Origin: Planctomycetia bacterium
GTDB taxonomy: Bacteria > Planctomycetota > Planctomycetia > Pirellulales > Thermoguttaceae
Assembly (NCBI GenBank): GCA_030527185.1
Contig: JAUNBF010000009.1
Location: 1-64,000, forward strand
Length of the DNA stretch: 64,000 bases
Direction of reading: 5' to 3'
Shown here in pieces: positions 13,711 to 64,000 of the stretch (position 1 is the first letter of the stretch; every line of letters begins with the position of its first letter). The translations under genes and the position numbers were made by a program. Under the pieces are notes generated by a model that saw only the letters and a program-made list of their open reading frames with translations, ran no database searches and had not been told where the DNA came from.

Positions 13711-15328
13711 GGCTCCCTCCTTTTCTTAAAGAATCTTCCCCACGCCAGAAATCCCAGAATCCCTCCGGCCAACAGCCACATCGAAGCTGGTTCGGGAACG
13801 GCCTGCCAACCGATTCCCGTGACTTGAAAATTCGCGCCATAAAACTGGTTGAAGTCGGAAAAATCCCAGGCCAGCCAGGAACCTGAATTCAGCCCGGTCA
13901 GAAGAATCCCACCATTTTCCGTCAGACTTGCCCCGACATCGTAATACGTCCGCAGACTCTCATCCGCATCGTTCATCCACAGAATCAAGTCGTCCAGCCC
14001 CACATCGGAAGAAGTATTTTCGCTGAAATAAAACGCGATCGCCCAATTCTCCTCCGACGGCACGTCCAACAATTCCACAAATCCTTTCGCCGAAGGGGTT
14101 TGCGACAAATCGAGAAAAGCCTTTCCGACGAATGCCAATTCCCCTTTTTTCTGATTGGAATCCAGCGTCGCCACATATTCTTTCGTTCCGTTCCCGCTGA
14201 GTGTCCAGAGACTGGAGTCGAGAATGCTGCCGTTATCCGCAACATTTCGTACCACAGTGCCCGATTTCAAAAGAACATGCTGTGAATTTTCCAGAATCGT
14301 TACGCCGGACGCAATTCCCAAGTCGATATTTTGCCGCCACGCAATATCTCCTTGGGCTGTAATCGTAGAAATTCCACCGTCGGCAAACATAAAATGGGTC
14401 GTGGTTGTAGAACCGGCCTGGATAGCGATATAATTACCTGCCTGAGCTGAAAGATCGGTTCCGAGAAACGTGATTTCGTTCGTGCCCGTCCCCGAATTCC
14501 AGTTTCCCGTCGTTTTCAGGCTCCCTCCAGTAATGACCAACTGCGATGTTCGGCCAGTCCTTGCCATGTAAAAATCCCCCCCGACGTTCACGTTCCCCCC
14601 CGACATCAGGAATGTGGCCGAATCGGGCGTTCCTGTTTGAGTACTGTCGTCGGTGCCTGCCAGAGAAAAGGTTTTCGTCTGGATCGTTCCGCCCGAAAGT
14701 ACCAAAGTTCCGTTGGCTCGCTCGGTACTGTTTCCTTTGGCTACGATCAGATGGTTGCTCTGAACTTCTCCCCCCGTCATCTCCATTCTGCCAACATCGG
14801 CTTGCGAAATATTGAGAAAATCGCTCGCTTTTAAGAGTCCGCCTTCCACCAGAACTTTCCCACGGGAGCCAAGCCCACTGGTGATGCCAATCTGGTTGAA
14901 TGTCACGGTTCCGTTTTTCAGATGAAAAAGATTGTTGGAGGATTCGTTACGTCCGACAACCAACTTTCCCGTCGATTCGACCGTCCCGCCATCGACCAGG
15001 AACGTGCTGGGATTCGCTCCATTCGCAAGTCCAACATACCAATAACCCGACCCGGCCATTTTTCCACCCAAAACCGATACCAGACCGTTGGCAGTCAAGT
15101 CTGTCGCGACGCTCACTTCCCCAGAAGAAATGGTGTACGTATCTGAAGAGCGTACCGTGTTACTTCCCACATCCGGCACGGCACTTCCGTTGATGTACCA
15201 GTGAGCAGAATCCCACGCATTCTTCGATCCATCCCAGACAAATTCGCTCCCGCAAGAATCTTCTAAACTACCCCCCCCCCGCAAATTAACACTCCTAGAA
15301 ACACCTTCAACCACAGTTTCGTTTTCAT
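13707..15328 (-). CDS. Exported repeat protein with PEP-CTERM signal; frame interrupted by a G10 run
   Basis: About 540 residues if read through the homopolymer. ATG 15328 begins an export signal (MKTKLWLKVFLGVLICG) that runs into ten consecutive G on the coding strand (15271-15280). As written this frame stops at once; 11 or 8 G would join it to the long frame continuing SLEDSCGSEFVWDG. The body consists of beta-helix, autotransporter-like repeats (GGTVESTGKLVVGR type), and it ends with VPEPASMWLLAGGILGFL plus a basic tail, an exosortase (PEP-CTERM) signal. A clear promoter lies upstream. Either a phase-variable gene in the off state or a homopolymer sequencing error. Confidence 0.8.
15271..15280. 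repeat. Homopolymer C10 (G10 on the coding strand)
   Basis: It falls at codons 17-20 of the gene starting at 15328. The 13 bases after the run on the plus strand (GCAAATTAACACT) are identical to those after the C11 run at 25295-25305. Confidence 0.9.
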
Positions 15329-25273: not shown

Positions 25274-28200
25274 ATGGGAAAATCGTCTATTCTGCCCCCC
25301 CCCCCGCAAATTAACACTTGGGGTGTTTTTTTGCTCCATTTTGGGCCTGGGAATTGGAATCTCTCCGGTTTGGGGAGAAAAAGTCGCCACCTGGTCGCTG
25401 GACGGGAATGTTGCTCTTTCCCGTGGCTCTGGGAGTTGGGGAACCTGGAGTGACGGAGAAACCTTCGGAACGACCGGCGGGGCAACTTTTGTTGCCGATG
25501 CCGTTTTGGGAACGGAGGTTCTGCAGATAACTTCCGGCGGGGTGAAATTGGGGACGATGCCCGCGCTGGTCTCTTCCGGGGAAAACGCCTCGCATTTCAG
25601 CGTTTCGTTTTGGGTTTCCAATAGCTACACCGGGGAAAGAAGTCCGGTTATCTGGGGAAATCGTTATGGTGCGGAAAATAATTTTCTCAAGTTGACACCT
25701 TCCGCCGTCAGTTACTACACCTCGTCCGCGAACGACAATTTCAGCTATCCTGCCGCACTGCCGCAAAATCAATGGTCATTTTACACGTTCGTCAAAGAGG
25801 ATGGGAAAATGACCGTTTATCTCAATGGTCGGGAATATGCCACACAAACGATTCAGAACGTTTCTGAGTTACCCGCTCTACCAGTTTATTTGGGTGGAGA
25901 CCCCGGTTCTACCAACGAACAATGGCAGGGGAAACTCAGCCAGGTCACGATTGACAACACCGCATTTTCCCCGGTCGAAGTTCGCCAGCAAATGCAATCT
26001 GCACAGCGAACCATCCTGCTGAATCAGCCCAATACCACCTTTTCCATCGTGGACGATTTTTCCTCGGCACCTTCCGACAATCAATGGAAATCGAAGACGT
26101 TTTCCAACTCGTCGTTCCAAGATGCCGGGGACAACTCGATTTCCATCTCCACCACTTCCGGCCAACTCCAGATTTCCGGCACACCTTCGCAACAACATTG
26201 GTATGGAGCTGGATTGGAGTCGGTATCTTCCTACGACGCTTCCGAAAGTGAAATCATCCTCACCATCGACCGCGTTTCGCTGGAAGGTTCCCAGGCACGC
26301 TCGACATTTTCGCTCTTGAGTACCACCAGCAACGAGTTTGTCCGCATGTCGCAAAATACCTACCATACGTTGGAAAACAACTCCGAATATGGCCTGTGGG
26401 AAATCAATTTTCAATCGGGCAAAGAAACTTACAATTCCGCTTCCAATCATGGCCTTTACAACACAAATCCGCTCTACGCAAGCGATTACGGCTTTCATCA
26501 GATGACGTTCAAGCATGACGGAACGCACGTCTGGACGTATGTGGACGGATTCCTGCAAAGTGTGGTGGAAGTCGGCTTCACGGAATTTCAACTGATGGTT
26601 TCTGCCCAGGCACGTTCCGCAAACACTTCTGTCAACGCGATTTACGACAATCTGACACTCTCCCGACGCAACGATGCTCTGAAAATTTCCCAACCGACGG
26701 AGACCTTTTCCGCCGATTTTGACCGGAGCCGATGGACCGCTCATCGTGGTTCGTTCGACAGCCCCACATTGACTTACACCGATTCTCCCAATGGCTACGT
26801 TTCCCGAATGAGAGACCTTTCCATCCTCCAGATTACCGATGGCGAAGTCGCCTTCAACGAGACGTTTTCACTGGGAAATTTGGAGGTTTTGGCCGTCACA
26901 CGCGATAGTATGGCGATAAGCCAGGGGAGTACCGTGGGGCTTGGTTCCAACTTTGCCACTTCCACGACGCGTGGAGGCCAAAGCGGTCTGAAACTCTTCT
27001 CCAGTGAGGATACTTATCTGGCTGTGGTGCAAAACTCGATTACGGGGGGATGGTTTTTGGAGTGGGATGGGCTGGAACTGTCGCGAAATGGCATTTCCGC
27101 TCTGCAAGGTTCGGAAGGGTTGGGGAGTACCGACATGCTGACGCACCAATTGGTGCTGGAACTTCTTGGCTGGGAAGGAGAAGTGGCTACCCTGCAACTC
27201 TCCATTGACCAGAACATCTCCGAAACGTTCACGATTTCTCAATGGACGCAGGAAATTTCCGCCATGCTCGTTTCTCTCGGTACTCAGTCCGGCTTCGATG
27301 ATTTTTACCTCCAAACCGCGTCACCTCCTGAAGTGCCGGAACCGGGAAGCGTGGTTTTGCTGTTGCTGGGAGCGGCTTTCCTTTTCCTGTGGAGGTATCC
27401 AGCTTCCTCTCCGGGAAAAACCCTCCGAAAAGGGTTTACGCTGGTGGAACTTCTGGTCGTCATTGCAATTATCGGAATGCTGGTCGGACTTCTGCTCCCT
27501 GCCGTGCAACAGGCTCGGGAAGCGGCTCGTCGAATGCAGTGTAGCAACCACGTCCGGCAAATTCTTCTGGCCGCCCATCAGTATGCCGCGCAAAATCGGG
27601 AGTATTTTCCCTACGCCACCGGGACGAAAAATTTTGGTTCCCATCTGGATGGTTCGGGAGACTACGGTTTTTTCACCATCATCCTTCCGTACATGGAGCA
27701 GCAGGCACTGTACGACCTGATCGACTGGAATGTTCATTGCGACTCGACCGATACGCAGACGCGAACGGTGCGTAATACCGTCATTTCTACGTATGTTTGT
27801 CCTTCTTTGGGAGAAACGCCGCTCAACACCATTCCCCAATATGCCGGGGCGTTGGTCTCCTATGCGGGAATCCACGGCGTGATTCGCAGCGCGACCGACA
27901 TTGCCCAACGTGCGGACTGGGAGCCGGAGTATTCTCCCACTCCCGCATCGCAAATTTTGACACGGCAAGTGGGAAATCTGGCACTCAACGGCATGATGCT
28001 CTGGGGGGAGAGAGTCCACGGTGGAACCATCCGCGACGGGTTGAGCAACACTTTTTATTTGGGAGATTTTACCGGACACCTGATTGAAAAAAACTACCCC
28101 TACGGCATGCGTCCCTGGATCATGGGAGCCAACTACAATTCCAACGGCGGGATTTACGCTTCCAAAGGGGTTCGCGGAAAAATCAACGATACCGATTCGT

Positions 28201-28370
28201 CGCTGATTTACAACAACTGCCCGCTCTCCAGTTTCCATCCCGGCGGGATTCATCTGGGGCGTGCCGACGGAAGTGTGGCCTTTGTCTCCGACGGTCTCGA
28301 CGAACGGATTTACAAGGCTCTCTGCACGCGAAATGGACAGGAAATCATCCCTGTTCAGGACGGTCTTTGA
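25274..28370 (+). CDS. Exported LamG protein with PEP-CTERM signal fused to a DUF1559 pseudopilin; frame interrupted by a C11 run
   Basis: About 1030 residues if read through. ATG 25274 has GGAGA upstream; seven codons later comes C11 (25295-25305). As written the frame ends soon after; 10 or 13 C would join it to a perfect signal peptide (RKLTLGVFFCSILGLGIG, then SPVWG-EK). The next roughly 190 residues are a LamG/concanavalin domain, followed by two further beta-sandwich regions. Then comes VPEPGSVVLLLLGAAFLFLW, a PEP-CTERM signal, a short basic loop, and a prepilin leader with FTLVELLVVIAIIG and a full DUF1559 domain. The long frame is also open from GTG 25323. Regulated by the shared 37-bp element; paralogue of the gene at 29665. 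Confidence 0.8.
25295..25305. repeat. Homopolymer C11
   Basis: It falls at codons 8-11 of the gene starting at 25274. It is followed by the same 13 bases as the C10 run at 15271-15280. Confidence 0.9.
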
Positions 28371-35313: not shown

Positions 35314-35322
35314 GGGGGGGGG
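35314..35322. repeat. Homopolymer G9 in a gene-poor region
   Basis: It lies 11 bases after a TTGACA hexamer (35297-35302), in the stretch where a promoter spacer would be. No good -10 box follows and no reading frame uses it. The 1.2-kb region 35110-36333 otherwise holds only a truncated gene start and an IS remnant. Confidence 0.6.
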
Positions 35323-41805: not shown

Positions 41806-42006
41806 ATGAAAAATTTCAAGCCGATCGAAATCATTCGCCAATTGAAGAGAGACGGGTGGTATCCTGCTGGTGGGACGGGGGGGGGGCATATCCACTTTTT
41901 ACACCCAACCAAAAAGGGAAAAGTAATCGTTCCCATATCGAAAAAAGAAATTTGCGGAAATCTCCTGAAAAGTATTGAAAAACAGGCTCAACTCACGTTT
42001 GAATAG
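41806..42006 (+). CDS. hicA: HicA toxin (mRNA interferase) with an internal G10 run
   Basis: 66 residues, with the HicA double-stranded-RNA-binding-like fold: GWYPAGGTGGGHIHFLHPTKKG, then VIVPISKKEI and LLKSIEKQAQL. The catalytic His follows the Gly run in GGGHIHF, where most family members read GSH. The Gly codons form ten consecutive G (41877-41886), so a one-base change would knock out the toxin. GGAGGAAGAG precedes the start, and a TATAAT lies at 41771-41776. hicB follows 12 bp downstream, the usual order. Confidence 0.88.
   Translation: MKNFKPIEIIRQLKRDGWYPAGGTGGGHIHFLHPTKKGKVIVPISKKEICGNLLKSIEKQAQLTFE
41877..41886. repeat. Homopolymer G10 inside hicA
   Basis: It encodes the last base of a Thr codon and three Gly codons directly before the catalytic His; the frame is intact as written. 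Confidence 0.85.
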
Positions 42007-63798: not shown

Positions 63799-63826
63799 TT
63801 GACTTTCAAAAATTTTAGGGTATAAT
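63799..63826 (+). promoter_or_regulatory. Promoter of the last gene
   Basis: TTGACT at 63799-63804, a 16-bp spacer and consensus TATAAT at 63821-63826. GAGGAGA precedes ATG 63890. Confidence 0.8.
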
Positions 63827-63889
63827 AAAAGTTCAGAGTTGGGATTGCGTTTTTCCAACGTAGAAGAAATTTTTTTGAGGAGAATGACA

Positions 63890-64000
63890 ATGAAAAAGGC
63901 TATTTGTTGTATTTTACCCCCCCCCCCGATTTTATCGTAAGAGGGGTTGGTCTTGTTGGAATTCTTTGGGGATTTTCTATTCCTCTGATTGCCGCGGAAG
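63890..64000 (+). CDS. Start of an exported protein with a C11 run (partial)
   Basis: ATG 63890 with GAGGAGA upstream. After nine codons (MKKAICCIL) comes C11 (63917-63927). As written the frame ends at TAA a few codons later. With 12 or 9 C it continues as a signal peptide: DFIVRGVGLVGILWGFSIP, then LIAA-E at the window edge. The layout (strong promoter, start, homopolymer, signal peptide core) is that of the genes at 15328 and 25274. The mature protein lies outside the window. Confidence 0.65.
63917..63927. repeat. Homopolymer C11
   Basis: It falls at codons 10-13 of the gene starting at 63890. Confidence 0.9.

Follow-up and report, generated by a model that had tools for sequence, protein, structure and literature searches.

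Homopolymer tracts in a fixed-spacing cassette at the starts of exported-protein genes point to probable large-scale phase variation in a Thermoguttaceae planctomycete

At the right edge of the window (the whole 64,000-nt stretch of DNA analyzed here), a strong promoter and an ATG lead through a short leader into 11 consecutive cytosines, after which the signal peptide core of an exported PEP-CTERM protein continues one base out of frame. The question raised by this locus is whether the missing base reflects the assembly, a recoding event, or a switch. The initial annotation had suggested a genome-wide set of contingency loci for exported proteins. The arrangement that it described is present at 63799 to 65151 and consists of the following features, in which the half-sites are the two conserved flanks of a sequence cassette around the tract:

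63799 to 63826, plus strand: sigma-70-type promoter of the PEP-CTERM gene, TTGACT-N16-TATAAT
63877 to 63882, plus strand: Shine-Dalgarno sequence GAGGAG, 7 nt ahead of the ATG
63890 to 63916, plus strand: ATG and leader MKKAICCIL, including the left half-site TGTATTTTA (63908 to 63916)
63917 to 63927, plus strand: C11 tract, one base short of in frame; a length of C12 or C9 would bring the two frames together
63928 to 63937, plus strand: right-hand half of the cassette, GATTTTATCG, which has degenerated (TTATCG in place of TTAACA) but keeps the canonical distance
63928 to 64000, continuing on the contig to 65151, plus strand: exported gene body (407 aa) with hydrophobic core VGLVGILWGFSIPLIAAE and a C-terminal PEP-CTERM motif

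The C11 tract lies outside the promoter, 27 nt after the ATG, at codon 10. The frame of the ATG at 63890 ends with MKKAICCILPPPPILS and a stop codon at 63938 to 63940, and the exported frame from 63928 requires one extra C to be joined to this start. The gene order at the locus is the PEP-CTERM gene, a small lipoprotein-like gene, and a DUF1559 gene.

C/G runs of at least 9 in the window are C10 at 15271, C11 at 25295, G9 at 35314, G10 at 41877, and C11 at 63917, and the earlier count of two runs of 11 and two of 10 in 64 kb is correct. Three runs are close to the starts of exported genes, as had been claimed, at codon 17 (15271), codon 8 (25295), and codon 10 (63917). The cassettes at the former two are as follows:

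15263 to 15328, minus strand: G-oriented cassette of a minus-strand gene with its ATG at 15328, TGTTAATTTGC-G10-TAGTTTAG; tract at 15271 to 15280, one base short
25274 to 25318, plus strand: C-oriented cassette, ATG GGAAAATCGT CTATTCTG-C11-GCAAATTAACA; tract at 25295 to 25305, one base too many

The three window proteins match PEP-CTERM, Laminin_G_3, and DUF1559 models. The body of the minus-strand gene extends to 13707 and is of the PEP-CTERM type, while the body after the 25295 tract (25308 to 28370) holds PEP-CTERM and DUF1559 in a single frame. Along that frame, a Laminin_G_3 domain and the PEP-CTERM motif come before a complete prepilin/DUF1559 domain; the two genes that usually form a PEP-CTERM/DUF1559 pair are fused here. 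The window also contains a HicA toxin gene (PF07927; 41806 to 42006), followed by a HicB-like gene, with an in-frame G10 at codons 24 to 27; cassette half-sites were looked for in this HicA gene, and none are present.

The draft genome (4.285 Mb in 174 contigs, 91% complete; the window is contig 12) contains 129 C/G runs of at least 10 and 91 of at least 11, compared with about 8 and about 2, respectively, expected from base composition (C = G = 0.257). These counts rule out a chance origin of the runs and bear out, across the genome, the excess above chance that had been noted in the window. Detailed analysis covered 125 sampled runs, with positions taken from searches and fetched stretches, and their lengths peak sharply at 11 (1 run of 9, 34 of 10, 66 of 11, 19 of 12, and 5 of 13). 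A gene start was called where a codon-usage score picked the downstream frame and an upstream ATG with a Shine-Dalgarno sequence lay within 70 nt. By this measure, 81 of the 125 runs sit 12 to 66 nt after a start, that is, at codons 5 to 23 (median, codon 12). The median ATG-to-run distance is 21 nt in the 34 C-oriented copies and 41 nt in the 47 G-oriented copies. Seventeen of the gene-start runs belong to DUF1559 prepilins and precede GFTLVELLVVIAIIGMLVG; near the tracts of the non-prepilin genes, a signal-peptide-like hydrophobic core was found in 58 of 64, compared with 0 of 63 interior control segments. This is the comparison that the initial annotation had proposed, namely, enrichment of runs near the starts of signal-peptide genes, and its genome-wide set of contingency loci is thereby supported; for switching itself, the evidence consists of interspecies differences.

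Pfam searches of the genome (4.3 Mb) returned 104 PEP-CTERM frames and 148 DUF1559 matches. A run lies within 250 nt of the frame start in 57 of the 104 PEP-CTERM frames (about 1.6 expected) and 94 to 161 nt upstream of 22 of 131 DUF1559 domains, an enrichment in surface and exported functions of the kind that characterizes SSR contingency loci. For 64 of the 104 PEP-CTERM genes, the next gene downstream on the same strand is a DUF1559 gene, an adjacency that suggests a paired module.

The runs are embedded in a conserved bipartite site of about 30 bp, C[CT]TAttttA-C(10-13)-nnA..TTAACA. On the C strand, unrelated genes have in common CTATTTTA before the run and GACTTTAACA, GCAAATTAACA, or AGCTTAACA after it, and C- and G-oriented coding copies yield one motif, so that the site is used in either orientation relative to the gene. 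An ungapped motif search with the run masked scored 1795, versus 1398 to 1495 with the flanks randomly re-paired. When the half-sites were scored separately, their start-to-start distance was 19 in 66 of 86 loci and within 1 bp of this value in 77 of 86; in 2000 flank re-pairings, no distance value was common to more than 35 loci. Left and right half-site offsets compensate for each other (Spearman coefficient, −0.78), as run length does for the flanks (−0.49), and therefore CCTATTTTA-C10-GCAAATTAACA and CCTAT-C11-TGCATAAATTAACA are equal in overall length despite the shifted run. Gene paralogy alone was rejected as the source of flank similarity, because the motif is common to both orientations across unrelated genes and because counts of one per sequence cluster also keep the frame bias described below. 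The half-sites were likewise rejected as an independent site without the tract: with a free spacer and 0 or 1 mismatch, the half-site pattern matched 12 tract copies and 2 sites without a tract, and with 2 mismatches the tract-less matches were no more numerous than in the control, i.e., not above chance. In the open-access literature, we found no published description of a fixed-spacing, orientation-independent cassette of this type.

An intergenic minority class has the form TTGACATGTC-G(10,11)-TANAAT upstream of start codons. The intergenic copies L041, L043, L050, L070, L081, and L121 read CTGGG..AAG.CTTGACATGTC-G(10,11)-TANAAT upstream of start codons and are probably phase-variable promoters in which the tract serves as the spacer and its length would determine the −35/−10 spacing. 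Homopolymer spacers in phase-variable promoters are a known class, and these minority copies resemble it. As a general function of the cassette, a promoter was rejected, since it fits the minority class only. Inside leaders, C-oriented copies would face away from the gene, and most copies, unlike homopolymer promoter spacers, are found in both orientations within the coding leader, with a separate promoter farther upstream.

The relatives found with the pattern appear to be Thermoguttaceae (Planctomycetota) MAGs from gut and rumen. The same cassette occurs in congeners G001, G004, G005, and G007, and tract numbers across the genus are 129, 48, 30, 25, 20, 8, 5, and 1. About 10 orthologue pairs, roughly 25% diverged, can be aligned across the tract; the site is kept in place, and the cassette is often better conserved than the surrounding sequence. 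Tract lengths differ between orthologues (e.g., 12/10, 12/11, and 11/10), and homologous copies include predicted ON and OFF states, a variation seen between species only. Leader swapping was rejected: the orthologue upstream regions are collinear, and the alignments run from the promoter into the gene body, which indicates that leaders are not exchanged. In the DUF1559 prepilin leaders of other Thermoguttaceae (e.g., MKNVKLGGGGKLRGFTLVELL), all 5 copies with G12 keep the frame, and 5 of 6 copies with G11 or G13 are out of frame. An order-wide scan with a strict pattern returned few copies outside the window genome; because this pattern demands TTTA beside the run and misses most variants, the scan tells little about distribution. 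Within the window genome, two adjacent paralogous membrane-protein genes (C51:6719-9810; L064 and L303) offer a further comparison. One, putatively glycosyltransferase-like in appearance, carries TTAATTTGC-G10-CAGTTTAGG, and its intact neighbor carries TTAATCTGC-GGAGGGGGGG-CAGTTTGGG, which is of equal length with the run broken by an A. In the paralogue with the interrupted run, the tract is naturally locked.

We consider it probable that these loci make up a large system of translational phase variation based on the conserved cassette. The elements of this account that can be read directly from the genomes are the cassette, its spacing, its use in both orientations, its association with PEP-CTERM and DUF1559, its conservation between species, and the occurrence of in-frame and out-of-frame lengths in relatives. 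The cleaved leaders of the exported proteins would carry the runs as mononucleotide tracts. Slipped-strand mispairing during replication would change a tract by one base, and that change would join or separate the start codon and the gene body, switching expression ON or OFF. The mature protein should stay unchanged when ON, because the tract is within the signal peptide or prepilin leader, and with the promoter separate from the tract, it is translation of the whole protein that would be switched. Selection would hold the half-site distance constant while the run shifts within the cassette. The retention of this distance despite differing flank lengths points to a DNA-level reader of the half-sites; hypothetically, this would be a DNA-binding factor or some other constraint acting on the DNA. 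More speculatively, and in our estimate rather unlikely, a dedicated factor that recognizes the half-sites on either strand at fixed spacing may control tract length or mutability. If so, this would be programmed genome-wide hypermutation with a default of “one base short” for about 130 surface genes and not passive slippage at tracts independent of one another.

The weakest part of the phase-variation account is the frame bias. The 81 gene-start tracts include 56 that are one base short, 15 with one base too many, and 10 in frame, whereas free random switching would place one third in each class; both the excess of short copies and the scarcity of in-frame copies in the window genome count against phase variation. 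With one tract per sequence cluster, the respective counts are 45, 13, and 10 (P = 3e-8). The frame follows the half-site distance, with frame 1 in 5 of 5 loci at distance 18 and one base short in 45 of 50 at distance 19. A few of these frame calls may be wrong, as the G10-carrying membrane-protein gene in C51 is in frame at the tract and has its frameshift farther on, against the initial frame call. We favor reading the bias as a resting state in which the genes are off by default and which the length constraint maintains. The dependence of frame on cassette length and the depletion of in-frame copies are also what undercalling would produce if the tracts and cassette are real and PCR stutter or consensus calling lost one base from genes that are in frame behind a fixed-length coding cassette. 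Such an artifact is improbable, given that 4 of 6 G10 to G12 tracts located within genes in this assembly keep the frame, versus 10 of 81 at starts (Fisher P = 0.006, small numbers), that the one-short bias does not increase with tract length, and that in-frame G12 occurs in other short-read MAGs. Programmed recoding, in which −1 ribosomal frameshifting or transcriptional slippage on a constant one-short design gives constant low expression, would explain why 56 of 81 loci have one frame offset regardless of tract length. We find it less probable still, as the offset is not conserved between species: congeners have mixed frames, orthologues differ in tract length, and G12 copies in other Thermoguttaceae keep the frame.

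Two further explanations start from the cassette itself. Because the cassette is short, conserved, and present on either strand across many loci, it could be a site-specific recombination or mobile-element site with the homopolymer as its core, serving an invertible leader or promoter or leader exchange. Single copies within 3 kb at most loci, collinearity of orthologues upstream and downstream across the tract, half-sites that are not mutual inverted repeats, and tract-less half-site pairs no more frequent than chance together make this very improbable. The C- and G-oriented copies are reverse complements with both half-sites included, as illustrated by CTATTTTA-C11-GACTTTAACA at C58:7194 (G-type) and C93:493 (C-type), and C-type leaders could therefore pair with G-type leaders over about 29 nt in mRNA-mRNA regulation, with the fixed spacing preserving the pairing. 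However, the intergenic promoter-like copies, located upstream of the start codon, share the left half and nearly the same arrangement, and we give this idea the lowest probability of all, close to negligible.

Phase variation in other bacteria provides the closest parallels. In the Campylobacter and Neisseria phasomes, G/C tracts of about 9 to 12 lie in the 5′ coding regions of surface genes, and Campylobacter strains have 5 to 81 phase-variable genes each, with tracts peaking at 9 to 10 (PMC6321876, PMC5084427). The planctomycete tracts are similar in that many copies are out of frame and tract lengths vary between homologues. They differ in numbering about 130 in one genome, in being tied to PEP-CTERM and DUF1559 leaders, and in having a conserved fixed-spacing cassette in both orientations, which we did not find in these two papers. 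In Chlamydia, of the same superphylum, pmpG genes form an expanded exported family with phase-variable poly-G/poly-C tracts, and some have poly-G near the start (PMC6740158). Unlike the genes studied here, the Pmp genes encode other protein families with autotransporter domains and have several tracts far downstream; no common flanking site at the pmpG tracts is reported in that study (PMC6740158), and the three window proteins did not match Pmp or autotransporter models. Invertons of gut bacteria also switch surface genes reversibly, and one inverton group is linked to PEP-CTERM proteins (PMC11892184). In contrast, most planctomycete loci have a single cassette with no invertible segment or flanking pair of inverted repeats, and the orthologues are collinear. 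Judged on sequence features, the planctomycete tracts qualify as SSR phase variation, with 81 slippable runs of 10 to 13 at which a one-base change would break or restore the gene.

Contingency loci are treated as independent, passively slipping tracts. That some 130 tracts share a site with fixed spacing, used in either orientation, means that selection also acts on cis sequence outside the tract. It implies that the DNA itself is constrained in a way for which other homopolymer contingency loci have no described counterpart, and the question of whether phase variation is under trans control thus becomes testable. The system would be one of the largest sets of phase-variable genes in a single genome, here in uncultured planctomycetes, and would tie homopolymer switching to exosortase (PEP-CTERM) surface proteins, a connection for which we found no earlier report in the open-access literature. 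The cassette pattern also has three matches on viral contigs. The related pattern TTTA-C10+-TTAACA matches many Bacteroidales genomes and a few others (L221 to L277, including Tannerella, Prevotella, Porphyromonas, and Oscillospiraceae), often about 150 nt or less upstream of secreted-protein genes and with a repeated TTAACATTT; these matches are possibly a separate class of tract-in-promoter switches.
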